This document shows, piece after piece, positions 8,418-21,513 of a stretch of DNA of 64,000 nucleotides. The DNA is from Methanocorpusculum parvum (GTDB lineage Archaea; Halobacteriota; Methanomicrobia; Methanomicrobiales; Methanocorpusculaceae). The stretch spans positions 62,001 through 126,000 of the forward strand of contig SUTD01000002.1 of NCBI GenBank assembly GCA_015063085.1, written 5' to 3'. Both the position numbers and the translations under genes were made by a program. The first letter of the stretch is position 1, and every line of letters begins with the position of its first letter. A model generated the notes under the pieces. The model was given only the letters and a program-made list of their open reading frames with translations, did no database searches and was not told the DNA's origin.

Positions 8418-9977
8418 TCAATATTTATTTCCAATCCGTGCGACAGAATTAAACCGAGTATCAATATTATATGCTCTTGCTGTGGCAAAATGTAATGTTA
8501 TATTCATATCTGGATTAAATGATGACGTCTGGTTTCGGAACTTGAATGAATAATGATGCTTCCTACTGTCACTTTCCTCATAGTGTCCAATCGCCCCAAG
8601 ATCGTACAATAGGTTACATATATATAATAAGTCGTCCGGAGTAAAACACTGATATTTCACATCAGAATTTATTTTATCTAATAAATCTGAATATAAGAAA
8701 TTTTTCATCCTCATTGATGTAATTAATTCTAGAGCCAGGCTAATATTTTTTCTTTCCAAAAATCCTGCCATTCCATCTCTAATCTCATTGATGAAGGAAT
8801 TCACTGCATAGTTTGTGATTCCATCTTTGATTTTATCGCTTGTCAACTCCGATCCATCTAATACTGTTTCTTGAATGTGGTTCATCAATTGAATTATGTC
8901 TCTTGGTGTGTGTCGTGTCCAATTTAGCAGGTTTTTTAAGCTTTCGTACCTTGTGGTTGCCCCAGAATATGATTCTGGGAAATATTTTTCAAAAATATTT
9001 ATTTCATTTTCTTGTTTTAAAGATATTTTTGCACGTAAATTGATGAGTTTTACAATATTTGTAGTATACACATTATTTGCTGTTTGATACCAGTTTAATT
9101 TAATTGTTTTGTCATCAGCTATCTTCCCAATATTTGGTCCAGAAAGGCTGTTGAATATATCTGTTCTACAAAGAATTACGATTTTTATGTTTATTCCTGC
9201 AGCCTCAAACTTAGAATTCAAAGTATTAGCTGACATTATCAATGCTAATAATGAACTGAATTGAATTTCTTTATGTGAAACCTCCTGGAATAGGATATAA
9301 TCCAAATCATCAATTACAATAATATGTTGATTGGACATAGTAAGAGAGAAGCAAACGTCACTTAATGCTGAGAATAACTGTTCTCTTGAAAGTGTTTTAT
9401 CTCCAAGAACTCGTTTTCCGCTAATACTGCCACTAATAACTGGTGTTTTGATTTTTAGACAGAAATCATAAAGGGAATGCAGAATTTTTTGAACGGGCGT
9501 TACATCCATAATATTATTTACAGAGGAGTCTGGAAGTAAGCCATGTTTTCTGTAGACTTCTTCAACTTTTTCTAAATCAACACCCTCTAAAGTTGTTGAT
9601 ACGGTTTTGTCTTGAATTATACTGTTAAATGTTAATAACAATAGGAGAAACTGCCAATAATTTGAATAACGAATCTCTGAAGGTTCATCAGAGGCATAGA
9701 GTTTATCAAATTCGCTGTATGAGAAGTCATTTAAGGAATATAACTTTGTAAAGAGTTTGTTCTCTGGATTTTCAGACATTAACTGTAATTTTGTTCCGAT
9801 TGCTGATTTTCCAGAACCTTTCGATCCAAGAATAAGAAAATGTGAATCATCTAATATCTTATTGATATATCCATATGCATCCAGGAATCCATCATTTAAC
9901 AAGTAGGAATAGCGCATTCCTCGCTCATTTTCAGCCGCAGCTTTTCCAAAGTTTATTTTCCCAAAGTCAGATTCCAT
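8418..9977 (-). CDS. P-loop ATPase, Sll1717-like family
   Basis: This 519-residue protein begins with a short FGKAAAENE segment, then Walker A at residues 51-58 (GSKGSGKS) in the context FLILGSKGSGKSAIGTKL, and Walker B at about 219-226 (IIVIDDLD). The GxKGSGKSA motif, the N-terminal FG--AAENE--YLL segment and the overall length match the P-loop ATPase family typified by Sll1717, which is common in defence islands and near restriction or retron-like genes. A biochemical function is not established for most members. The C-terminal 200 residues are helical, with an RH-TPRDIIQLMNHIQ segment like the lid of other STAND/AAA proteins. Likely intracellular. No linked effector gene is clear apart from the small ORF downstream. 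Confidence 0.75.
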   Translation of the reverse strand: MESDFGKINFGKAAAENERGMRYSYLLNDGFLDAYGYINKILDDSHFLILGSKGSGKSAIGTKLQLMSENPENKLFTKLYSLNDFSYSEFDKLYASDEPSEIRYSNYWQFLLLLLTFNSIIQDKTVSTTLEGVDLEKVEEVYRKHGLLPDSSVNNIMDVTPVQKILHSLYDFCLKIKTPVISGSISGKRVLGDKTLSREQLFSALSDVCFSLTMSNQHIIVIDDLDYILFQEVSHKEIQFSSLLALIMSANTLNSKFEAAGINIKIVILCRTDIFNSLSGPNIGKIADDKTIKLNWYQTANNVYTTNIVKLINLRAKISLKQENEINIFEKYFPESYSGATTRYESLKNLLNWTRHTPRDIIQLMNHIQETVLDGSELTSDKIKDGITNYAVNSFINEIRDGMAGFLERKNISLALELITSMRMKNFLYSDLLDKINSDVKYQCFTPDDLLYICNLLYDLGAIGHYEESDSRKHHYSFKFRNQTSSFNPDMNITLHFATARAYNIDTRFNSVARIGNKY

Positions 9978-10250: not shown

Positions 10251-10637
10251 TTATGACACAAAGAGATAAACTTCATAGATTACACCGTTGTGCTCTATGT
10301 ATCGGTTTCCACCTCCAGTGTAGTATCCATAAGCTTCTCGAATTGCATACCCAGTTTCTTTGTCCACACATCCAGGACGAATGTAGTACTCCGAGAGTGG
10401 GCCTTGGTCGATATAGAATGATTCTGGAATGTTTCTGAGCACTTGGTATTTTTCATAGTCTTCTTCGGTGAGCTTGATAATTTCTGCATCCTCAGGAATT
10501 GGTTCATTTGGAACTATGAAATTGAACTCTTCATATGGGGGTGCATTTATTATTGCCAAAATCGGCAATGCTGCCATGATAAGTATGACAAGGATAGACG
10601 CACCAATAATTACACAGAGACTTTTTTTATTTGTCAT
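10251..10637 (-). CDS. membrane-anchored small protein
   Basis: This 128-residue protein has a charged start (MTNKKS) and one hydrophobic segment (LCVIIGASILVILIMAALPILAII), then a hydrophilic, probably extracellular domain with many tyrosines (EEDYEKYQVLRN, GYAIREAYGYYTGGG, HNGVIYEVYLFV). The hydrophobic segment lacks a clear cleavage site, so it probably acts as an anchor. It lies 75 bases downstream of the secreted metallopeptidase gene on the same strand and may be co-transcribed with it. No family recognised. The HNGVIYEVY ending faintly recalls the HNGVTYTLT segment of the secreted paralogue at 13668, which may mean a shared fold element. Confidence 0.6.
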   Translation of the reverse strand: MTNKKSLCVIIGASILVILIMAALPILAIINAPPYEEFNFIVPNEPIPEDAEIIKLTEEDYEKYQVLRNIPESFYIDQGPLSEYYIRPGCVDKETGYAIREAYGYYTGGGNRYIEHNGVIYEVYLFVS

Positions 10638-10712
10638 GTTTCACTAACTAACAATGATTAGTAATATTTGATAGATAAATACAATCCAGATTTATTCTCC
10701 ATCTTTTAATAA

Positions 10713-12089
10713 TTAAGCATGTAAACTTATCTCAACTTTACAATTCCTAATTATTCTTGCATTGTCATGTGTTGCGTCGCCGAGATATGAGGGTGATGCT
10801 GTTGAGGAAAATTCAAGTAAGTTACAGCCAGAACCAAGATATCTATCAATCATGACTGTATCATGAAAGATAGCGCCATCAAACCATTTGGTATAAGACT
10901 GTTCATGGCGCCCATCAAAACAATGTCCAATCTCATGAATAATACAATACTTTCTTGAATAGTCATTACCATTATATGAACTGATTCCATCAGCAACCAT
11001 CTGACACCATGCATATCTTCCTTTATAGTCATCTGTTCTTCCTTGGACATGACCTTTTGGACCAATTCTGTCATATCCTCCAAGATAGAGGCAAATATCA
11101 GCCCCAATGGAATCCAGATATGATTTTGGATAAACAGCTTCAAGAGCCACTATTGGATCAGTAAGGATGTCCGGATGTGAACTCAGTTGATTCTTTCTTG
11201 ATGAATCATATGCAATTACATTAAGAAAAACGCCAACATCTTCACGTCCAAATGATGTGACACTGTTTGCATCAGCAATATATGATTCAGATATGGATAC
11301 CCAATCACCACCATAAATCCCTAATGGATTTTCAGAGAAATAATTGTCAGTAACTACCAGAACATCCACTGTGACAAGAGAATTTGTTGCCCTTGAATCA
11401 TCATTTTTATTCAGGAATGATTCACGTTCCAGCATTTCTGATACGGTTGGTTCGGGCATACCACAGAAATCAATTGGTTCACTTGGCTGGAGAATGTCAT
11501 ATTCTGAATAAACAATATGCATTGGACTTTTGCCGTTTTTGGTCTCGATGTTTGAATCAATAACTGTAATTGTCAGATACTCTCCAGGATAGGAGATACT
11601 TCCAATTAACAGGTTCTTATCATTTACTGTGAAGACAACTTGTGAGTCCGTAACTCCTTCAATGGTTCCTAAGTAAGAATCAATACCATCATCAAGATTA
11701 TCCGGCATACGTTCCAGATTTACGGTGTATTCTTCACCGTAAAGAGTGATGTCAAATTTCAATGTTTCAGAACGTACTGGAATTGGGTTATCAAACGCCA
11801 ATACTGAGTAAATTTCCTCATCATATCCAATCTCTTTGGATGCTTTTTTTGCATTTGAAGATTCAGTGATGAACTCAGGAATGTTCAGAGAACTTTGTGT
11901 ATATGTTGATAGAGCACTACCTTCTGGACCTGCTTTACCATCGTACACAATTGTTTTCTCGGGAATGGTGAAGATTGGAACATTCACTTTATCCGTAGAT
12001 TCGGCACTAATAGGGTGAATACACACAACTGCTGCCAACAGCAGTATGCATACAGCAAAGATTTTGACTTTTGCAGATTTTGTTTTCAT
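10713..12089 (-). CDS. secreted metzincin-like zinc metallopeptidase
   Basis: This 458-residue protein has a Sec signal peptide (MKTKSAKVKIFAVCILLLAA ... ISAES). A roughly 220-residue propeptide-like region is followed by a catalytic domain with the zinc motif HEIGHCFDGRH (H385, E386, H389, H395), which fits HExxHxxxxxH with the third ligand at the metzincin spacing; the usual glycine is shifted by one. The N-terminal region (TLYGEEYTVNLERM, SYLGTIEGVTDSQVVFTVND) resembles propeptides of reprolysin-like peptidases. Expected location is extracellular or the cell surface. Its promoter carries the same TCTAGAACAC site as the divergent promoter at 13.5 kb, so it is probably in one regulon with the secreted paralogues and could process them; that is inference. 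Confidence 0.8.
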   Translation of the reverse strand: MKTKSAKVKIFAVCILLLAAVVCIHPISAESTDKVNVPIFTIPEKTIVYDGKAGPEGSALSTYTQSSLNIPEFITESSNAKKASKEIGYDEEIYSVLAFDNPIPVRSETLKFDITLYGEEYTVNLERMPDNLDDGIDSYLGTIEGVTDSQVVFTVNDKNLLIGSISYPGEYLTITVIDSNIETKNGKSPMHIVYSEYDILQPSEPIDFCGMPEPTVSEMLERESFLNKNDDSRATNSLVTVDVLVVTDNYFSENPLGIYGGDWVSISESYIADANSVTSFGREDVGVFLNVIAYDSSRKNQLSSHPDILTDPIVALEAVYPKSYLDSIGADICLYLGGYDRIGPKGHVQGRTDDYKGRYAWCQMVADGISSYNGNDYSRKYCIIHEIGHCFDGRHEQSYTKWFDGAIFHDTVMIDRYLGSGCNLLEFSSTASPSYLGDATHDNARIIRNCKVEISLHA

Positions 12090-12142
12090 CTTCCGCTCCT
12101 GAGTACCAAGTCATATGGACTGACACTCTGGAGAGATATTCT

Positions 12143-12193
12143 TGCAGGAAATGTATTAAAAAGAGTGAGCAAAGTCTAGAACACTAGGTGTTC
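12143..12193 (-). promoter_or_regulatory. TCTAGAACAC operator and TATA element of the metallopeptidase gene
   Basis: GAACAC TAG GTGTTC (12179-12193) is a perfect inverted repeat extended to TCTAGA on the left. On the minus strand TCTAGA is followed by CTTTGCTCACTCTTTTTAAT, which matches the order seen at 13565-13592 (TCTAGATGACGCTCAC, then TTAAATAA). The operator lies immediately upstream of the TATA-like sequence, a position typical of archaeal activators. It overlaps the 3' end of the regulator gene. Confidence 0.65.
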
Positions 12194-13013
12194 ATTCACA
12201 GACTGCTGTTTCTGATTCCAACCGGGTCATATACACCTCACAGAAACTAGGATTTACCGAGTAACAGGTTGTATTCTTATGATTCTCTACCAGAATCAAC
12301 CCCTCACCAACCATTTTATCCAGATGCCATCGAAGGGTTGTCATTGGAATTCCTGTTTCTTTGGATAGTTGTCTCTGAGATATGCCGGGATTATCGTGAA
12401 TTGTCTGAAAGATATTCATTCTGCTTTCATTTTCCAGAAGCTTCCATGCCTTCCTGTCTTTTTCTGTATGGTATGTATCATGTGTATAATAGTGTGCAAT
12501 ACTATCCTTGGTTTTGTAGATTTTCATCTCCTGATTCAATCTCTTTAGATTATATGATACCGAACCGCGTGAAAATCCGGTAGCATTGATAATTTCAGTC
12601 TGCTGAGCACCGGGATGTTTCTGGAGATATTCAAGGATAATCATATGCCTGCTATCAGTATTATCAGAAAGTTTACGCCTCGTGTAAAGGAAGAAGAGAT
12701 AGCCAGAGGTTATAAGACCAATAATGGTGGTGATTATGCCTATGATAATTACAATAGTTTCCGCAGCCCAAACTGGAACGGCCCCCACATTGAAGAAATT
12801 GATGATACGTGCAAGTATATATGGTATCGAAAACTGAAATTCTGTTATTTCAACAATAGGATTATCTGTATCATCAGAAATGAATGGTGAATCAACTGGT
12901 ATTACTGTATATCCAGATATTGGATAATGGACTACTTCATCTAAAGCTTGCACTGGGAGACAAGTAAAAGAAATAATGAGAATAATCAGGCAGATTGCCC
13001 AATATTTTGCCAT
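12192..13013 (-). CDS. membrane-anchored transcription regulator with two winged-helix domains
   Basis: This 273-residue protein has an N-terminal signal or TM segment (MAKYWAICLIILIISFTCLP), a short outer domain of about 60 residues and a second TM helix (AAETIVIIIGIITTIIGLIT), placing the C-terminus in the cytoplasm. Two winged helix-turn-helix domains follow: residues about 128-170 (HPGAQQTEIINATGFSRGSV) and about 200-255 (NPGISQRQLSKETGIPMTTL, RWHLDKMVGEGLI). This is a one-component membrane sensor/regulator layout known in Methanomicrobia. It follows the small secreted protein gene with a 12-base gap and so is transcribed from the divergent operator at 13533-13578. It is the obvious candidate to bind that site and the one at 12179-12193. 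Confidence 0.8.
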   Translation of the reverse strand: MAKYWAICLIILIISFTCLPVQALDEVVHYPISGYTVIPVDSPFISDDTDNPIVEITEFQFSIPYILARIINFFNVGAVPVWAAETIVIIIGIITTIIGLITSGYLFFLYTRRKLSDNTDSRHMIILEYLQKHPGAQQTEIINATGFSRGSVSYNLKRLNQEMKIYKTKDSIAHYYTHDTYHTEKDRKAWKLLENESRMNIFQTIHDNPGISQRQLSKETGIPMTTLRWHLDKMVGEGLILVENHKNTTCYSVNPSFCEVYMTRLESETAVCE

Positions 13014-13025
13014 CTTAATTCCTTA

Positions 13026-13505
13026 TTAATAACTATTAACCCCAAGACTAAATAACTGTATGCCCACAACATCAACACCAACCACGACAAAAATCCAATT
13101 GCCCTGTTTAAGTCCATGTGTGTTGATTATTTTCAGATGAATCAATCCATTTGGATTTGGGTTGTCATGCGTATCTGTAAATTCTTCAACAACAAGTCCT
13201 TCAGGATCCAGAATCTGTAATTTCAATGAATTATAATTCGGAGAAAGAGGCCATGATAATTGAAATTCTATCTCAGTTGAACCTGGGGTAACATAATGAT
13301 TAAAATATCGTGCCTGTCCCTGCATAACTGATGAAGATATAGAAGAACGCGGTTCAATCAAATCCTCTATGTTCAGCGGAAGGATAAGATATTCAGACTC
13401 AATTTTCTCGACTCCAAAACCATCTGCCGCAGAAGCTGGTAATACACAAATACAAAGCAGGAGAAAAACTCCAACAACATAACGCCATTTCATAACATAG
13501 CTCAT
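13026..13505 (-). CDS. secreted protein with PPC-like beta-sandwich
   Basis: This 159-residue protein has a Sec signal peptide (MKWRYVVGVFLLLCICVLPA, then ASA). The mature part resembles a bacterial pre-peptidase C-terminal or jelly-roll domain: QARYFNHYVTPGSTEIEFQL, SLKLQILDPEGLVVEEF, GNWIFVVVGVDVVG. That pattern (a vector strand, a 'ldPeG' turn and a G-W-F/V-V strand) suggests a small beta sandwich at the cell surface. It is the first gene of a two-gene unit with the membrane-anchored regulator and is transcribed from the divergent TCTAGAACA promoter. It could be the extracellular ligand or partner of the regulator, by neighbourhood only. Confidence 0.65.
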   Translation of the reverse strand: MSYVMKWRYVVGVFLLLCICVLPASAADGFGVEKIESEYLILPLNIEDLIEPRSSISSSVMQGQARYFNHYVTPGSTEIEFQLSWPLSPNYNSLKLQILDPEGLVVEEFTDTHDNPNPNGLIHLKIINTHGLKQGNWIFVVVGVDVVGIQLFSLGVNSY

Positions 13506-13532
13506 TTATCCGGAGGCATATATCAAATTTTT

Positions 13533-13578
13533 GAGCATCATCTAGAACACTTGCAGTTTCATGTTCTAGATGACGCTC
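13533..13578. promoter_or_regulatory. divergent operator, 17-bp inverted repeat
   Basis: Arms 13533-13549 (gagcatcatctagaaca) and 13562-13578 (tgttctagatgacgctc) pair at 16 of 17 positions across a 12-base spacer. On each side the arm is followed by a TATA-like element: ttaaataa at about 13586 for the plus-strand paralogue genes, and GATATATG at about 13517-13524 for the minus-strand secreted protein/regulator genes. The half-site recurs at 12175-12193. Confidence 0.75.
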
Positions 13579-13667
13579 ACATTTCTTAAATAAGTTTTTG
13601 AATCCATAATTTCTTGTGGGGTGTGAAGTCCCTCACATTAATTAACCACAAAAAAGAGGTGATAAAA

Positions 13668-14366
13668 ATGAAAAAAGTACCTACAAAAGTACTCAGTATC
13701 TTACTGTGTATTGGTCTGATTGCTGGATTAATTCCTGGAGTTTTTGCTACAGAACCAACAACACAGACAATTGAGCATAATGGCGTTACCTACACCCTGA
13801 CCATTACTTACTCAGAAGAAGGGCAGCAGATAGCAACAGTAACTGGAGGAGGAGTAACAACATCTGCTCATTTTGAAGATGACATGCTTATTCTCACTGA
13901 AACAAATCTTGTAACCAAGGAAACTACCACCACTGTAAAAGATTTGAATGAAGAATCTGAATTCACCACAGCATCATCAAATCATAATACCCGCGGGTAT
14001 TATTCAGAACAATCTCAGTATTTCAATGTTGGATATGAGGTTACAACCAGATCTGGTGTTGATTATTGGATGATTTGGAATAGTGATAATTTTGCTAAAG
14101 CGGTTAACACCCCTCCGGTTGATTTGAACTTACTTAAAGATTTTCAGGAAGCTGTAAACTCGTGCTGCAATTATGAGCAAGAATTCAATTATGAGGTTGG
14201 AAGTAACATCATATACACTGTTGTTAATGCATTAAGCGGAGTTAATGGAATTACTGCAATTGCATCCGTACTTGGCCTCTTTGGAATTCCACTTGCCGTA
14301 GCAACAATCTGGGATAATGCACAGAGAGCTGCTAATTTGGCAGATTTCCATTATGATCACATCTAA
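13668..14366 (+). CDS. secreted paralogue 1, bacteriocin-like architecture
   Basis: The start at 13668 (MKKVPTKVLSILLCIGLIAG) has AAAGAGGTGAT upstream; 232 residues. It has a Sec signal peptide cleaved after VFA. A beta-rich region of about 75 residues follows (IEHNGVTYTLTITYSEEGQQ, VTGGGVTTSAHFEDDMLILT), then a domain shared with the next two genes (YFNVGYEVTTRSGVDYWMIW, NSDNFAKAVNTPP, FQEAVNSC--YEQEF) and a Gly/Ala-rich hydrophobic C-terminus (VNALSGVNGITAIASVLGLF). This plan recalls large secreted bacteriocin precursors such as the geobacillin-26 type, from memory and unverified. First gene of a three-paralogue operon under the TCTAGAACA operator. Confidence 0.7.
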   Translation: MKKVPTKVLSILLCIGLIAGLIPGVFATEPTTQTIEHNGVTYTLTITYSEEGQQIATVTGGGVTTSAHFEDDMLILTETNLVTKETTTTVKDLNEESEFTTASSNHNTRGYYSEQSQYFNVGYEVTTRSGVDYWMIWNSDNFAKAVNTPPVDLNLLKDFQEAVNSCCNYEQEFNYEVGSNIIYTVVNALSGVNGITAIASVLGLFGIPLAVATIWDNAQRAANLADFHYDHI

Positions 14367-14379
14367 AAGGAGTATTATC

Positions 14380-15102
14380 ATGAAAATTAATATGAAAATT
14401 ATTGCCATCTCATTATGTGTATGTCTTCTCATGTCATTTGCAGCACCAGTTGTTGCATACGAGACAAACTCTGTTGAGTCATTCAGAATCGAAAATTCTG
14501 GAGATATTTATGATGTAACCATCTCCTACAATGCAAAGGGAGAAAGAATTGCCACAGTCGTAAATAATGGTGTCTCTACAACTGCAGTCTTCTCTCCAAG
14601 AGAAAACTCAGTACTGTTAACTGAAAAATCATTAATCACAGGAGAGATTAAAACCACCAGAGTTAGTGGCTCACCAGATGTATTTGGAATGGAAGCATCA
14701 ATCTCAGATATCAGAGAGACAGAATCTGCAAAGTATTTCCATGTAGGATATAACATCGCAGATGGATCACCATATTTCAGATGGTCGATTACAAACAGCA
14801 ATCAAAACATAAAAATGGCTGATGAGACACCATCAAATGCAAACTACTTAAGCAATTTCAAAGGAAATGTCATGTCCTGTGTTGCCTATGAAAAAATGTT
14901 CGATGCGGCAGTTGGCTCTACACTACCAACATCTATCATTAATGCTCTCCTCAGAGTAGCAGGGTTCTCTGCAGTCTTAGCAATTCTTTATGCTCTTGGA
15001 ATTGCAGAACATCCAGCTGTTACTGCTGCAAATGCTTGGGAATCTGCAAGTTCACATGCAGATAACGCGGATTACTATTACAATTTAGTAACTGAACTCT
15101 AA
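14380..15102 (+). CDS. secreted paralogue 2
   Basis: The start at 14380 (MKINMKIIAISLCVCLLMSF) has AAAAGGAG 8 bases upstream; 240 residues. It has a signal peptide ending near VVA. It repeats the plan of paralogue 1: a beta region (IYDVTISYNAKGERIATVVN, NGVSTTAVFSP, LLTEKSLITGEIKTTRV), the shared domain (KYFHVGYNIADGSPYFRWSI, NSNQNIKMADETPS, FKGNVMSCVAYEKMF) and a hydrophobic, Ala/Leu-rich end (INALLRVAGFSAVLAILYAL). The conserved Cys-x-x-Y/N-Y-E segment is kept. It starts 13 bases after paralogue 1, so they are co-transcribed. Function unknown. Confidence 0.7.
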   Translation: MKINMKIIAISLCVCLLMSFAAPVVAYETNSVESFRIENSGDIYDVTISYNAKGERIATVVNNGVSTTAVFSPRENSVLLTEKSLITGEIKTTRVSGSPDVFGMEASISDIRETESAKYFHVGYNIADGSPYFRWSITNSNQNIKMADETPSNANYLSNFKGNVMSCVAYEKMFDAAVGSTLPTSIINALLRVAGFSAVLAILYALGIAEHPAVTAANAWESASSHADNADYYYNLVTEL

Positions 15103-15117
15103 TCAAAGGTGATTGAT

Positions 15118-15546
15118 GTGATACAAACATCTAGTTTGAGAAAAGGGTTGGTTTGTCTAACCTTTTTCTTATTACTCCTCTGCATGATATCTCCAATTTC
15201 TGCAGAAGAAAGCTCTGATGTCATAGAACAGGAATCAAAGTACTTTACTGTAGGTTATGTTCTCTCAGAAAAAAGTGAAGTATCCTACTGGATGTTGTGG
15301 AACTCAGAGAATATGGCAAAGGTTGCTGATGTCCCTCCAGACAACCCACTTATTCTTGAGAGATTCAGAAATGCAGTGGATACCTGTCTCATCTACGAAA
15401 CAAAATTCAATAAGGGAATTGTTACTCTCATTGCAGGATGTCTCTCACCATTTATCTGGGCAGTAACTGTTCCAGAGATGATGGAATCATGGAAACTTGC
15501 AGAAAATGCAGCAGATACAGCAGATTATTACTTTGCACAACTGTAA
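15118..15546 (+). CDS. secreted paralogue 3, short form
   Basis: I prefer the GTG at 15118, about 6 bases after AAAGGTG; a GTG at 15109 is in frame. About 142 residues. It has a signal peptide (LVCLTFFLLLLCMISPISA) and then goes directly to the shared domain (KYFTVGYVLSEKSEVSYWML, WNSENMAKVADVPPD, FRNAVDTCLIYETKF), lacking the beta-rich region of the two larger paralogues. It ends in a helical tail (WKLAENAADTADYYFAQL) like the tails of the other two. It could be a minimal form of the same molecule or an immunity-like decoy. It starts 15 bases after paralogue 2. Confidence 0.65.
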   Translation: MIQTSSLRKGLVCLTFFLLLLCMISPISAEESSDVIEQESKYFTVGYVLSEKSEVSYWMLWNSENMAKVADVPPDNPLILERFRNAVDTCLIYETKFNKGIVTLIAGCLSPFIWAVTVPEMMESWKLAENAADTADYYFAQL

Positions 15547-15664
15547 CAGGAAATATTATCAACCTTATTTTTCATCTCTCTTTTTAATCATCCTATAAGT
15601 CAACATATCCTAGCCTCAGTCTCAATCATCTTTATCAGGTTCATCATCCAATCTACAATACAGA

Positions 15665-16396
15665 ATGAAACCCTATCTCTTCCCAAGCCGCAGACATTCC
15701 GGCAGAAAATGCCGTAAACACACCCCACACAGCATATCTGAAAGACTCTATGAAGCGCTCTGGGACAATACCTTAGAGCTTAGAAAGAAGGCAGGAATTA
15801 TGATTGGTATCTTAGGAATCATCCTGCCGCTTCTCGTAACTGTTTATGCATCAAACAGTGAGGGTCTGGATTCAGGTTTATTTACTATCTTCTTTGGCAC
15901 ACTTCTTATGGTATTCCTGGAGTATTTTGGTCTTTACATCTGCCTGTATCTGACACCAAAGTACGGGCTTTCATGGAATCTTAAAGAACTGGATGAAAAG
16001 AAACTTAGGATATTTTCCGAGGAAGGAAGTGAGGAGGACAGGGAAGAAATCTGGGACAATTTACTGGTAGAACAGGGAGCGAAGTACACTCTGTACTTTT
16101 CATTATCGGCTGTACTGGATGTAATTCTGTTCCTCACTATTGGTGTTCTTGCAGTATTCCTGCTGGAATTAATCGCACCCATAACATCTGGCATGTCTCT
16201 TGTGACAGTGATGCTGGTGTTTTCCTTTGCATTTAGTGCATGTGTTGCTGAGGCAGTAATCTGTGCCGTTGGTTACATTTTCTCTAGTGTATATCCAAAA
16301 ATGGCGAGTAGATTTAACAATATAATATATCTTTTAGCCACTGCAGCTCTCTCGATGGTATTCTGGGGGATGTGGTTTTGGAATATGTTTAGCTAA
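15665..16396 (+). CDS. multi-pass membrane protein downstream of the secreted paralogues
   Basis: This 243-residue protein has a basic N-terminus (SRRHSGRKCRKHTPHS) and about five hydrophobic segments: IMIGILGIILPLLVTVYAS, FTIFFGTLLMVFLEYFGLYI, LSAVLDVILFLTIGVLAVFL, TVMLVFSFAFSACVAEAVIC and IYLLATAALSMVFWGMWFW. An acidic cytoplasmic loop (EEGSEEDREEIWDN) lies between the second and third. No transporter signature is visible. It is on the same strand, 118 bases after the third secreted paralogue, so it may serve as immunity or export function for that cluster. That is inference from position; the family is unknown to me. Confidence 0.6.
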   Translation: MKPYLFPSRRHSGRKCRKHTPHSISERLYEALWDNTLELRKKAGIMIGILGIILPLLVTVYASNSEGLDSGLFTIFFGTLLMVFLEYFGLYICLYLTPKYGLSWNLKELDEKKLRIFSEEGSEEDREEIWDNLLVEQGAKYTLYFSLSAVLDVILFLTIGVLAVFLLELIAPITSGMSLVTVMLVFSFAFSACVAEAVICAVGYIFSSVYPKMASRFNNIIYLLATAALSMVFWGMWFWNMFS

Positions 16397-16483: not shown

Positions 16484-17047
16484 TTAATGAAGAAGAAAAT
16501 CCCTGAGTTCATGCACCCATTCGGGAGCATTCGATATGAACTCCTGCAGAATCTCTTTCTGCAAATCAACTCCACGAACAGAATCAAGAGCCTTCCCTGT
16601 AACTCTCTTGACCTCCTTTGTCAGAGTTACCGGATAGAGGAAAACACCAGATTCCTCCTCCTTTTTCAACCTGAACAAATTAGAAGATTCCTGATTCAGT
16701 AAATCTTTGCGCATCTTCTTATGCATCTCATTCTTCAGTGTATCAAGTGTAACACCATTGTCAGAATCAAGAACAACCTTTATCGGATACTCACGTTCAT
16801 ATGAGTAGATTATCCACATCTGATGAATACAGGTATTCCGATTCTCATCCTGCTTGAGAAGATATGAGGCGGTACAGCGAGACCGCAGAAAATTCTTGAT
16901 AGTAACACTTTCCCCAGATAAATCAGATGCACCGCAAATCTGACCCCAGTTTTTAGACACAACACTCTGATTCTCGGCGCCCAAAAGCAGTGATAAAAAT
17001 ATCAAATCATGTTGTCCTTCACAAAGGACAACGCGTTTCCTCCTCAT
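16484..17047 (-). CDS. TOPRIM-domain protein of a split OLD-like pair
   Basis: This 187-residue protein opens with a TOPRIM signature: VVLCEGQHDLIFLSLLL gives the catalytic Glu10 and Gly11 with Asp14, and VVLDSDNGVT gives the second acidic motif DxD (residues 94-96). TOPRIM nickase domains in OLD-family defence nucleases normally follow the ATPase domain in one chain; here the domain is a separate gene whose ATG overlaps the ATPase stop (TAATG). The C-terminal part (EVKRVTGKALDSVRGVDLQK) is helical. Probable role: metal-dependent DNA or RNA cleavage regulated by the ATPase. Related two-gene layouts include PARIS and other ATPase/TOPRIM systems; I cannot say which is closest. Confidence 0.7.
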   Translation of the reverse strand: MRRKRVVLCEGQHDLIFLSLLLGAENQSVVSKNWGQICGASDLSGESVTIKNFLRSRCTASYLLKQDENRNTCIHQMWIIYSYEREYPIKVVLDSDNGVTLDTLKNEMHKKMRKDLLNQESSNLFRLKKEEESGVFLYPVTLTKEVKRVTGKALDSVRGVDLQKEILQEFISNAPEWVHELRDFLLH

Positions 17048-18195
17048 TACGTACCTCGTAAATCCATCTTCATCTCAACCATCTCTGCAAATGCTTCAGA
17101 CGGAGTGTAGTTATAGAGTTCATGTTCATCCCTACGTTTTACAATACGGGTAATCTGGATTAAATCCCGCTCCTCCACACTTTCCTCTTCATCATACTGG
17201 GAATAGTTTGCAAATGCCTCAATCAAATCATAACTATGTGTTGTCAGAAACACCTGCACATTCAATTTCCTGGCAAGCAACATCAGATTCTCAACAAAAA
17301 CCTGAAGATATCCGGGATGCATGTGATTCTCCGGTTCCTCTATCAAGAGCACACCATCGCGGCACTGCCGAATTGTTGAGATGAGATTCAGGAGAATACT
17401 AAATCCCGTTCCATGGACAGTATATGGGAGGAAATATGTCTCATCATTCTCACGGTAAACCACCCCATCCTCCATCAGTCTCTCGACATTTGGTAACAGA
17501 TTATGTTCCTGGACAAACTTATCCAACTCAATCAACTCAAGCGGGTCAGCAGTTACCTGATAGAACAATTTATCAGAATTGTTGATGAAACGAATGTTTC
17601 CGACATTTGCATCTACGTTCTCACTAAACCCATATGACATGCGGCAGAACTGATAGAGGTATTCCTGTAAATCTTCAGGACTAATATCAGCTCCAGCAAA
17701 AATACTCTGTGAATCGGCAACAAGTTTCTCAGAGAACCCTTTATAGGGTGTTACATCTATTGATCGAAGATTACTATCCAATACAGAAAATGACACCATC
17801 CGGGATTTTATCAGATAGTCAATAAACTTCTTCTGGTAAAATGGAGATGGCGTGAACTTTGCATTGTGGAATAATACCAGATTTAATTTCTCAACAATCT
17901 TTTCTGAAAAATCAGCGGGCAAATCAGAGAGAGAGCATGAGATGAAAAAGTCATGATTATCAGCTGAAATAGATGCACGTTCAGCATGAACATTAATTCC
18001 ATACCTATTGAGATATCGACCCTGATTGAAGATAGTCGGAACTTCCTTTCCCGTCAAAACTGCATAAATTGCCTCAAGAATTGTGGACTTCCCGGAATTA
18101 TTTCTTCCAATAAGCAGATTAACCTGTTTTGGTTCATACCGCAAATGAGAAATGCCTCGAAAATTATTGATTTCAATCCAAGGAAGCAATGTCAT
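17047..18195 (-). CDS. OLD-like ABC/SMC-type ATPase (AAA15/21)
   Basis: This 382-residue protein begins WIEINNFRGISHLRY, typical of OLD/RecF-like ATPases, then has Walker A at about 30-38 (GRNNSGKST) with ILEAIYAVL. Late in the chain are Walker B (VLLIEEPENHMHPGYLQ) and the switch histidine region (VFLTTHSYDLIEAF). The region in between is helical and divergent, as usual. Such ATPases dimerise on DNA ends or sense invaders and control a TOPRIM nuclease, which here is the next gene. It is complete at its C-terminus and contains no nuclease of its own. The pair has its own AT-rich promoter region upstream. Confidence 0.8.
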   Translation of the reverse strand: MTLLPWIEINNFRGISHLRYEPKQVNLLIGRNNSGKSTILEAIYAVLTGKEVPTIFNQGRYLNRYGINVHAERASISADNHDFFISCSLSDLPADFSEKIVEKLNLVLFHNAKFTPSPFYQKKFIDYLIKSRMVSFSVLDSNLRSIDVTPYKGFSEKLVADSQSIFAGADISPEDLQEYLYQFCRMSYGFSENVDANVGNIRFINNSDKLFYQVTADPLELIELDKFVQEHNLLPNVERLMEDGVVYRENDETYFLPYTVHGTGFSILLNLISTIRQCRDGVLLIEEPENHMHPGYLQVFVENLMLLARKLNVQVFLTTHSYDLIEAFANYSQYDEEESVEERDLIQITRIVKRRDEHELYNYTPSEAFAEMVEMKMDLRGT

Positions 18196-18511: not shown

Positions 18512-18976
18512 ATGTCAGGGAATAACATTCAGCTATCTCATGATGAGTTATCATCTCTTCACAAGGAGATTGATTTGATTCAAAATTGTATTACAAGAAT
18601 GGCCCAAAATTCATTCATGATAAGAGGATGGGCCATATCTATTGTTGTAATTACCTGGGCGATTATTGGAATTGTAGAGAGTTGGGGGTCTATTGCGTTA
18701 ATTCTGCTTCTTCTCCCGATATTAATGTTCTGGTACTTAGATGCATTTTTTCTTATGACTGAACGCAGATATCGAGATATGTATAAATCCATTCTTGAAA
18801 AACGACTGAAAGATAAGAACTTTGAGAACATGTACGATTTAAATCCAAATAATTTTAAAAATGGATTTATGGATTTGCCAAAATGTATGATTTCAAAAAC
18901 ATTGTGGCCATTTTACCTGTCTTTAATAGTGGTAGTTGTGGTTGCCATAACATTACAGTTCCTTCTCTGTATTTGA
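18512..18976 (+). CDS. small integral membrane protein of a defence-associated type
   Basis: This 154-residue protein has an N-terminal helix (HDELSSLHKEIDLIQNCITR, MAQNSF), then two close TM helices (GWAISIVVITWAIIGIV and IALILLLLPILMFWYLDAFF), a conserved-looking FLMTERRYRDMYKSI segment, a soluble stretch and a third TM helix (FYLSLIVVVVVAITLQFLLC). The layout 'RMA-NSF--+GWAI ... P-++FW-LD-++L--ER-+R-+Y' matches a widespread uncharacterised family that often sits in defence islands and resembles SLATT-type membrane effectors in outline. It may be a pore-type effector for a neighbour, but no partner is clear; genes on both sides run on the other strand. Confidence 0.55.
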   Translation: MSGNNIQLSHDELSSLHKEIDLIQNCITRMAQNSFMIRGWAISIVVITWAIIGIVESWGSIALILLLLPILMFWYLDAFFLMTERRYRDMYKSILEKRLKDKNFENMYDLNPNNFKNGFMDLPKCMISKTLWPFYLSLIVVVVVAITLQFLLCI

Positions 18977-19041: not shown

Positions 19042-21513
19042 TTAGGGAATGGCTGGACAGTTTTTCATCTTTCCCCTGATATTAGATAAATCTTTAATTA
19101 TATTGTCAGGTTCAATATCTAAGATGGGAATCATGTCTTCAATCTTGTAACCGAAATTAGCGTATGAACATTTTGTTTCAAAGCGATTATTGATTAACTT
19201 GAGATTTTCAAGGAAGTTTTGTCTACCAAAATTAATTTCAAGTACTAATTCATGTTTGTCCTTGTAGATATCTACAATTTTATTTTTAATTTCTTCAGCA
19301 TTTTTAGAATCTTGTTCAGTACAACACAGCAATGTGAGAATACGACATTGCATATCCCATGTATCCTTATTAACAAATTCTTTGAGTTTTGTTTCTTCAG
19401 AATACTCCTGGAAGAAGTTACGAACAGATTGGTATGTGTCATTAAGTTGATAAACACCTGATGAATCCTGTTTTGAACAGATAACAAGACATTTGAAATA
19501 GTTGTAGAGGGTATTAAACTCAATTGTTTTCTTATCTCCGGGTAATGAGACAGGATTACTGTTGTATTCTATACCTAAGCACTGTAATGATTTCTGCATA
19601 TTTTCAATGCAAGATGCCGCACACTGTTCTCTTTCTTCATAATTTTTGATTCCTGAGCAAAGCCGCTGCATCTGCGCAAGACTAAGATTCCTGTATCCTT
19701 GCTGGCTTTCCCGAAGAAACCGCGATGCATCTGCATCAGCAATGTGCAATTTGAAATACTCTTCAGCCTTATCAAAACACCCCAAACGGAGATTCAATAA
19801 TCCTAACAGATTGTATGTCTGATTTAATCCGCGCTCTCCAGTTAAGTTGCCTATTTTTTGATAGATATTGATACTTGTCTTACATAAGAATTTGGCTAAT
19901 CCCAGAATCTCTGCATACATATTTTTTCGGTTCGTTGCATAATCATTATCATCTGGGATTGGTGGAAGGTCGGGGAGCATAGTCATAATTATATGTGCCA
20001 TTGATCGAAGTGACGCGGCAAACATTAAACTTTGATCAGGTGACATAGCATCACATGAAACTTGTAATTTCAGTGAATCCAGGTTGTGTGAATATGCCTT
20101 AACTATCTTATCTTTTCCCTGTAATCTATAGAGTTGAGCCACTGCGAGATGTGCTTCTGCCTCCAGATTTGTGTCTCCAGCGGATTTTGAGCGTTCGATG
20201 GCAGTGATACCTTGTTTAATACCCCATTCCATCACTTTACTGTCAGATTTTCTTTGATAAAGTTTGTATGCCAGTTTTGCATCCTGATATGGTGCATTTG
20301 CGGAATCTACATGGTTATTCAAAGACCTCATCAAATACCATGAAGCAATATCGGTAACATCACTATCAAAATACTGCAGTATTTCTGCTGAAACCTTTTT
20401 ATCAATTTCTGGTGTAAGTTTTTCAGACCAGGATTTAATGATAGCTTCAGTATACTCATCGATAGTGTTACTTGTTGTCTTGGTTGCTGATGTTATTGAA
20501 TCAGTAATTTCTTTATTATCAGGACAGATACGAGAGAAGAGAGATTTGGCATACTCTGCAGTATCAGTTTGGATTAAGTATGCTGCATTATTCTTATTCT
20601 GATTACAACAGGTATGAAGTGTGTTGTACATATTATGGTATGATACATCTTTCCATTCCATAAGAGCAGGAGATGTGCTATATTTATTTACTATATCTGA
20701 GAAATATGCAGAATCTGATATGATATTATCACCACCCTTTTCAGAAGATGTATGTTTTATCCAATAAATTTTCTTTGGACAGGATTCTGGTTTTGAGAGA
20801 ACTTTGTATAAATCATATTCATCTCTCAAGCTATGTCCCATAACTACCCATGTATGGTTATGCAGGGCTTCAAGAAGTTTGATTTTGGGAGTTACTGATT
20901 CGCTTTGATGTTGAGAAAGCAATGTTACTATAGACGCTGAGGTATCATTACCGTCAGGGTCACAAAAGGATCCATGCAATTTAATCAGATAACCTTCATG
21001 ATAATCCATAGTTTCTGTCTTATTACCCGTAATATCTTTAGTAAATTTTTCAAAATCATAGTTTTTTATGAGACAATGTGTACTATCAATAGTTGTATTG
21101 TAAAGTATTTTGTAAGCATCTTCAATCAGGCCGTCAAAATTTGTAGATATGACAATGTTTCCCTGCTGAATAAGAGCAGCAAGCAAGTAGTGGATTACAT
21201 TTGGCTCCACAGAATATCCGTCAGCTCTTGCTGTTGCTGTATCTAAAACCTTAAGCGGGAGCAGACCATCTCTTTCTCCCATATGTTTTAACAGAATCTG
21301 GAAGAATAATTCCGGGCGTATTTTCTCTAATATCATATTTCTATCAAAGTATTTCAGAGATGATAATTGTTTAAGGCAATTGTCTTGCGGGAAAAGAGAC
21401 AAATTGGTTGGTGAACTATAGGAGATGCCGGCACCAACAAGGAAGATTACAGGCTTGTTAGAATTGGTTTCATCACACAGACAATTTTTGATATATTCAA
21501 AGTAGGACGACAT
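19042..21513 (-). CDS. SIR2-like NADase fused to TPR repeats
   Basis: This 823-residue protein has an N-terminal SIR2 domain at about residues 1-270: IFLVGAGISYS (nucleotide-binding GAG-S at 27-31), VISTNFDGLIEDAY (N125, D127) and YLIKLHGSF (H180). It then has VVMGHSLRDEY, as in SIR2-like prokaryotic defence proteins. From about residue 380 to the end it is helical with degenerate TPR-like repeats (EAHLAVAQLYRLQGKDKI, TYNLLGLLNLRLGCFDKAEE). SIR2 effectors deplete NAD+ on infection; the TPR part probably senses or oligomerises. No SLOG domain is seen, so it is not a classical ThsA. It lies just downstream of the decayed TIR gene on the same strand. Confidence 0.8.
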   Translation of the reverse strand: MSSYFEYIKNCLCDETNSNKPVIFLVGAGISYSSPTNLSLFPQDNCLKQLSSLKYFDRNMILEKIRPELFFQILLKHMGERDGLLPLKVLDTATARADGYSVEPNVIHYLLAALIQQGNIVISTNFDGLIEDAYKILYNTTIDSTHCLIKNYDFEKFTKDITGNKTETMDYHEGYLIKLHGSFCDPDGNDTSASIVTLLSQHQSESVTPKIKLLEALHNHTWVVMGHSLRDEYDLYKVLSKPESCPKKIYWIKHTSSEKGGDNIISDSAYFSDIVNKYSTSPALMEWKDVSYHNMYNTLHTCCNQNKNNAAYLIQTDTAEYAKSLFSRICPDNKEITDSITSATKTTSNTIDEYTEAIIKSWSEKLTPEIDKKVSAEILQYFDSDVTDIASWYLMRSLNNHVDSANAPYQDAKLAYKLYQRKSDSKVMEWGIKQGITAIERSKSAGDTNLEAEAHLAVAQLYRLQGKDKIVKAYSHNLDSLKLQVSCDAMSPDQSLMFAASLRSMAHIIMTMLPDLPPIPDDNDYATNRKNMYAEILGLAKFLCKTSINIYQKIGNLTGERGLNQTYNLLGLLNLRLGCFDKAEEYFKLHIADADASRFLRESQQGYRNLSLAQMQRLCSGIKNYEEREQCAASCIENMQKSLQCLGIEYNSNPVSLPGDKKTIEFNTLYNYFKCLVICSKQDSSGVYQLNDTYQSVRNFFQEYSEETKLKEFVNKDTWDMQCRILTLLCCTEQDSKNAEEIKNKIVDIYKDKHELVLEINFGRQNFLENLKLINNRFETKCSYANFGYKIEDMIPILDIEPDNIIKDLSNIRGKMKNCPAIP

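Follow-up and report, generated by a model that had tools for sequence, protein, structure and literature searches.

Bacterial regulators of the ToxR/ToxS type comprise a membrane-tethered winged-helix factor and an extracytoplasmic partner whose gene lies in the same operon. In archaea, ArnR and ArnR1 of Sulfolobus are described as membrane-bound one-component activators (PMC6396743). Geobacillin 26 and alicyclobacillin 24, which belong to one family (Geo26), are tested class III bacteriocins with antibacterial activity (PMC13176240). Here we describe a locus of Methanocorpusculum parvum, a member of a largely host-associated genus of hydrogenotrophic methanogens (PMC10035134), in which membrane-bound one-component regulators and Geo26 bacteriocins, both known kinds, are represented side by side. 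The window analysed spans 64,000 nt (assembly GCA_015063085.1, contig SUTD01000002.1, 62,001–126,000 of the forward strand), and all positions below refer to it. The host genome assembly measures 1.40 Mb, is 80% complete and was scanned for operators by pattern matching. We consider it likely that the locus forms an effector cassette complete in itself, in which a membrane regulator acts through a private operator on three transcription units that are activated on an external cue (Table 1).

The promoters of this cluster share a motif that occurs nowhere else in the genome. The sequence TCTAGAACAC has two genomic occurrences, at window positions 12175 and 13541, and the looser pattern TCTAGA-N(3–6)-GCTCA is found three times in the window, compared with an expectation of 0.17 and with 0 of 100 shuffles reaching three; its genome-wide total is likewise exactly three. 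The fuller 19-bp motif RTGTTCTAGANNNNGCTCA (RTGTTCTAGA-N4-GCTCA) yields three perfect genome matches, all at promoters of this cluster (12166–12184 and 13532–13550 on the minus strand, 13561–13579 on the plus strand). The runner-up matches carry two mismatches, and at three mismatches the matches do not exceed a reversed-pattern control. This confirms the recurrence of the motif at the cluster promoters proposed in a preliminary description of this DNA, which had named an equal frequency elsewhere in the genome as refuting; the scan returned the three exact sites only, with weaker matches at background level. A genome-wide regulon was rejected because no further exact sites were found in the 80%-complete genome.

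The two central sites form a near-perfect palindrome of 18 + 18 bp, with 17 of 18 positions paired, one mismatch and a 12-bp spacer (score 15.5 versus a shuffle maximum of 9.5). The 17-bp inverted repeat initially placed at 13533–13578 is therefore real and serves divergent promoters, its arms being slightly longer than first stated. The repeat unit noted before the peptidase gene is present as well, as a single half-site and not as a second copy of the palindrome. Directly downstream of every site stands a TATA-like element, that of the peptidase gene, of the P159–regulator operon or of the Geo26 operon, and the order TCTAGA, gap, GCTCA, TATA holds for all three promoters with a uniform gap of 4 nt rather than 4–5. 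The alternative of a promoter element common in this genome, met here by chance or bound by an unrelated regulator, appears extremely improbable: TGNYCA-type cores do adjoin the TATA box in many cassettes of the kind described below, but the 1.40-Mb genome holds no more than three exact sites, and the TCTAGA–GCTCA motif is almost missing from genomes that are related to the host and lack a close relative of the regulator.

Table 1. Features of the cassette and adjoining genes; positions are those of the window
Feature	Position	Strand	Basis and remarks
P128, 128 aa, single transmembrane segment, possible co-transcribed partner of the peptidase	10251..10637	-	adjoins peptidase homologues in L029, L035, L037
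Secreted zincin-type metallopeptidase, HEIGHCFDGRH	10713..12089	-	Reprolysin_3 match below cut-off; homologues in 15/33 family genomes
TATA-like element TTTTAATACA, peptidase gene	12153..12162	-	sequence
Single operator half-site GTGTTCTAGACTTTGCTCA, peptidase promoter	12166..12184	-	exact match, 1/3 in genome
Membrane-anchored double winged-helix regulator	12192..13013	-	transmembrane segments 6–24 and 83–101; winged helix-turn-helix domains ~118–180 and 190–256
P159, secreted jelly-roll protein, 159 aa, putative extracytoplasmic partner of the regulator	13026..13505	-	probable start 13493
TATA-like element GATATATG, P159–regulator operon	13517..13524	-	sequence; placement conserved in 24 cassettes
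Palindromic operator, two divergent promoters	13532..13579		arms 13532–13549 and 13562–13579 (TGAGCrTCATCTAGAACA), 12-bp spacer; score 15.5; both half-sites genome-unique
TATA-like element TTAAATAA, Geo26 operon	13586..13593	+	sequence
GEO1, geobacillin-26 family, 232 aa	13668..14366	+	NF035925 44.9 bits, cut-off 40
GEO2, geobacillin-26 family, 240 aa	14380..15102	+	NF035925 76.6 bits, cut-off 40
GEO3, short paralogue with the C-terminal domain only, 145 aa	15109..15546	+	NF035925 21.6 bits (below 40); alignment; homologue without long form in G019
P243, multi-transmembrane protein, candidate immunity protein, downstream of the Geo26 operon	15665..16396	+	role predicted only

The regulator spans the membrane twice, with an external loop of ~60 residues, and carries two winged helices; it thus holds helix-turn-helix (HTH) and transmembrane (TM) segments in one protein, as do the membrane-bound one-component regulators of archaea. 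With ArnR and ArnR1 it has in common this pairing of a DNA-binding domain and TM segments, the inverted-repeat promoter boxes and the predicted control of surface or secreted products. However, ArnR possesses one N-terminal HTH, a HAMP-like and a sensor domain and a C-terminal TM pair, and its targets are pili and the archaellum, whereas the window regulator has an N-terminal TM pair with an external loop, two C-terminal winged HTH domains (wHTH), a linked secreted partner gene and a private operator for each copy. Membership of the ArnR family proper was rejected because of this reversed domain order, the wHTHs (residues ~118–256) following the TM segments. ToxR/ToxS-type regulators would be a parallel in manner of working, but with the opposite order of domains, and here the promoters are archaeal.

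The product of the gene just upstream of the regulator, P159, has a signal-peptide-like N-terminus and a jelly-roll fold as in the C-terminal domains of subtilases. A profile search matched 1wmd (E 2.9e-5), and Foldseek matched the predicted fold to 9ues and 1wmd (1–2e-5). P159 thereby resembles the C-terminal jelly-roll of the subtilases KP-43 and Tk-SP in profile and predicted fold, but it is free-standing, has no protease domain and is linked to a regulator. Its secretion and the position of its gene make P159 a candidate extracellular signal partner. A membrane-bound double winged-helix protein is indeed encoded under the operator, as had been stated, in a P159–regulator operon behind the palindrome. 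The further claim that one operator ties the peptidase, the self-regulated regulator and the secreted paralogues together is supported by the genome-unique sites, and comparative evidence points to the membrane double-wHTH protein as the cognate, auto-regulated factor of the private operator; what had been overlooked is the secreted partner P159.

Comparison with other genomes reveals that regulator–operator–effector cassettes form a large family to which the locus belongs, a fact that had escaped notice in the preliminary description. Homologues of P159 are present in 17 of 33 Methanocorpusculaceae genomes, in 105 of 232 genomes of the class and, at E <= 1e-8, in 106 of 392 in the phylum sample, and the cultured isolate M. 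petauri alone has eight copies. The regulator directly follows P159 in all ~40 family cassettes examined, in 20/20 loci from other families of the order and in 16/16 loci elsewhere in the phylum. Methanocorpusculum pairs frequently lie back to back with a secreted gene, which encodes a peptidase of the same type, a Geo26 protein (genome G016), a phospholipase-like protein or others; targets other than Geo26 and peptidase were described by eye. The closest complete cassette (G012, locus L025) has a regulator 41% identical to that of the window and carries TCTAGA-N4-GCTCA twice: one site precedes the P159 gene by 55 nt, the other the start codon of a trypsin-like protease gene by ~0.25 kb. Palindromes scoring 15–33 lie upstream of P159 in 22 of 41 Methanocorpusculaceae cassettes, compared with a maximum of 12.5 in 492 shuffled regions. 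Their arms reach up to 41 nt and then include the TATA box, and the layout of the half-site is conserved: a cassette-specific inner part, a TGNYCA core and, 2–8 nt on, a TATA-like element.

Outside the genus, a palindrome of a different sequence (TGTCCATATCATCCAACTG/CAGTTGGATGATATGGACA) precedes P159–regulator pairs in several methanogen families (L132, L134, L127, L124, L115 and L108) and is probably another operator class, common to several orders. Some cassettes look decayed, with an in-frame stop in the peptidase (G031) or an in-frame TAG in P159 (G016:C9 and G032:C5); these genes lie at L030 7630–9078, L035 6466–6940 and L076 5301–5732.

Operators and regulators co-vary. Between homologous pairs whose regulators are 38–80% identical, identity amounts to 0.59–0.92 from –10 to +19 around the core, and to ~0.2–0.36 upstream and 0.37–0.55 downstream towards the gene. 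Operator distance tracks regulator distance, with rho values for the inner 14 nt of 0.35 for the whole protein and 0.41 for wHTH1 (p 0.001, n = 24). After removal of close copies (n = 17), Mantel tests still gave p < 0.02, with a rho of 0.37 over the inner 8 nt (p 0.0007) and of 0.27 over the whole 20 nt (p 0.005). A division of labour that assigns the core to the first winged helix and the variable part to the second found no support in these correlations, wHTH1 correlating better with both parts.

Secreted targets have been exchanged between regulator–operator pairs. The targets of L078 and L080 are 88% identical, whereas their regulators share 39% identity and their operators 10/20 positions; conversely, in the pairs L078/L034 and L030/L075 the targets are unrelated, while the regulators are 85–87% identical and the operators agree at 19–20/20 positions. 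The window peptidase fits the former pattern, being 71% identical to that of L029 with regulators at 24% and operators at 12/20. Such exchanges favour the regulator over the target as the partner of the operator. The placement of exchanged targets under an arm of the new cassette, together with arms long enough to take in the TATA box, could also mean that the long palindromes arose mainly by inverted duplication of one promoter at the capture of a new secreted gene, in which case their symmetry would say little about a dimer. We regard this as rather improbable: conservation between cassettes is concentrated in the operator and TATA box, the window arms keep 17/18 operator bases while their flanks diverge, and the isolated half-site of the peptidase retains the same 15 specified bases as the palindrome sites.

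The output of the divergent operon can now be named. The three secreted paralogues of the preliminary description do stand under the shared operator, but they are not of an unknown kind: GEO1 and GEO2 exceed the curated cut-off of 40 bits of NF035925, the NCBIfam model of the geobacillin-26 family (Geo26A_fam), and GEO3 is a short form. Hydropathy places hydrophobic stretches at residues 8–26 and 194–212 of GEO1 and 7–25 and 193–211 of GEO2, as expected for a signal peptide and a C-terminal helix. With geobacillin 26 and alicyclobacillin 24 the two proteins share a score above the cut-off, the signal peptide, a length of ~240 aa and the C-terminal hydrophobic helix (PMC13176240). They differ in their archaeal host, their arrangement in a three-gene tandem with a short third copy, their dedicated membrane regulator and a function that is predicted from sequence. 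The designation of the locus as a secretion system was not borne out, because the products carry ordinary signal-peptide-like N-termini and no export machinery was recognised in 10251–16396.

Within the class, Geo26 proteins were found in 3 of 232 genomes, every one in Methanocorpusculum, a patchy distribution that fits acquisition and loss. A search of plasmids and genome contigs for a bacterial donor found no Geo26 there. The AlphaFold model of GEO2 (pLDDT 67) was too uncertain and was not used, a fold search with it gave no significant match, and a Geo26 profile search of the PDB gave lectin matches at chance level only. An antimicrobial function of the window proteins is suggested by their family membership. 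Alternatively, they could be surface or scavenging proteins and the cassette a nutrient-responsive exoenzyme switch, as co-regulation with a protease would fit and as the peptidases, phospholipase-like protein and proteins of no known kind under other cassettes of the genus may suggest. We hold this possible but doubtful, as two tested family members are antibacterial (PMC13176240) and the presence in so few genomes of the class fits weapons under gain and loss.

Under the effector-cassette reading, the N-terminal loop of the regulator would lie outside the membrane and both winged helices inside the cell. The regulator probably binds RTGTTCTAGA-N4-GCTCA directly upstream of the transcription factor B recognition element (BRE) and TATA box of three units, namely its own operon with P159, the Geo26-family operon and the secreted metallopeptidase gene. 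Most likely it would bind the arms as a dimer or higher oligomer and recruit basal factors, a mode inferred for ArnR, likewise a membrane-bound activator (PMC6396743). P159, translated from the same mRNA, probably modulates the regulator from outside the membrane as its signal partner, and the locus may be signal-responsive. The likely outcome is a small antagonism set switched on, rather than derepressed, by an external cue; with Geo26-family proteins and a protease as output, antagonism towards neighbours is probable.

Several observations weigh against this account. In the eight peptidase-type cassettes, the operator followed peptidase and regulator equally, and the co-variation of operators and regulators arises partly because whole loci share descent. 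About half of the P159–regulator pairs, chiefly those not divergent from a secreted gene, have no palindrome. The regulator of G019 is 58% identical to that of the window and has a GEO3-like gene beside it, yet no P159 was found in this 83%-complete genome, and of the operator only the GCTCA part is present. The similarity of the window proteins to Geo26 is remote, and the antibacterial role of the archaeal proteins is predicted. Finally, the core overlaps the BRE position, which makes repression conceivable. The regulator would then sit on the palindrome and block TFB and TBP at both promoters until a signal from outside, passed on by P159 and the membrane segment, frees it. The TGNYCA core does occupy the BRE position, with 2–8 nt between it and the TATA box, and autorepression of divergent operons is common. 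We nevertheless consider repression, although the main alternative, rather unlikely, since BRE/TATA is preceded in each case by the specific half of the site, the usual place of archaeal activators, and since ArnR and ArnR1, the membrane-bound factors characterised in archaea, activate their targets (PMC6396743).

Our literature search, in which absence is weak evidence because only open-licence papers were covered, found neither Geo26 proteins in archaea nor a family of methanogen regulators that have private mirror operators and a jelly-roll partner. The cassettes present a widespread family of membrane regulators for which both targets and binding sites are predicted, and make testable how archaea perceive their surroundings and use secreted proteins, possibly against bacteria; M. 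petauri, as a cultured isolate, is open to direct tests. Effector exchange among regulator–operator pairs would offer a natural system for the evolution of DNA-binding specificity. More speculatively, and with somewhat less than even confidence, we propose a phylum-wide, previously undescribed modular signalling system of methanogens, made up of secreted jelly-roll sensors and membrane-tethered double-wHTH factors with co-evolving mirror operators and interchangeable secreted effectors (peptidases, phospholipase-like proteins and bacteriocin-family proteins), the effector in Methanocorpusculum being a bacteriocin of bacterial descent directed against gut neighbours.

Named relatives of the peptidase belong to M. 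petauri, M. parvum and a goat-cecum Methanocorpusculum sp. (69%), with more distant ones in Methanocalculus, which places the host in Methanocorpusculum. Its motif HEIGHCFDGRH retains the third His of HExxHxxGxxH with the Gly one place off, and its Reprolysin_3 score is 13.7 bits against a Pfam gathering cut-off of 22.4. With the motif Gly displaced and the score below the cut-off, a metzincin/M12B assignment was rejected, and we file the enzyme only as zincin-type. Its N-terminal, propeptide-like part also occurs alone, without the catalytic domain, in tandem or beside Geo26 (L027 8771–9400; L039 8117–8806, 9595–10431 and 11949–12665; L043).

Small single-TM proteins of the P128 type (10251–10637 in the window; L029 5512–5904 and 8465–8863; L035 4472–4894; L037 5110–5493; L028 12417–12794) recur next to this type of peptidase and next to the GEO3–regulator pair in G019, and P128 is possibly an inhibitor or immunity partner. 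In the latter locus (L028 10548–11844) the gene of the short GEO3-like protein runs into the beginning of the regulator reading frame, and no long Geo26 gene was found in that genome. GEO3 or P243 might, at a guess, be immunity proteins, GEO3 alternatively an accessory protein; family searches with P243 gave no significant match. Likely defence genes lie on both sides of the cluster (8418–9977, 16484–18195, 18512–18976 and 19042–21513) and encode a Sll1717-family ATPase, an OLD-type ATPase with a partner like PDC-M38A/B, a PDC-M50A-like membrane protein and a SIR2-type protein.

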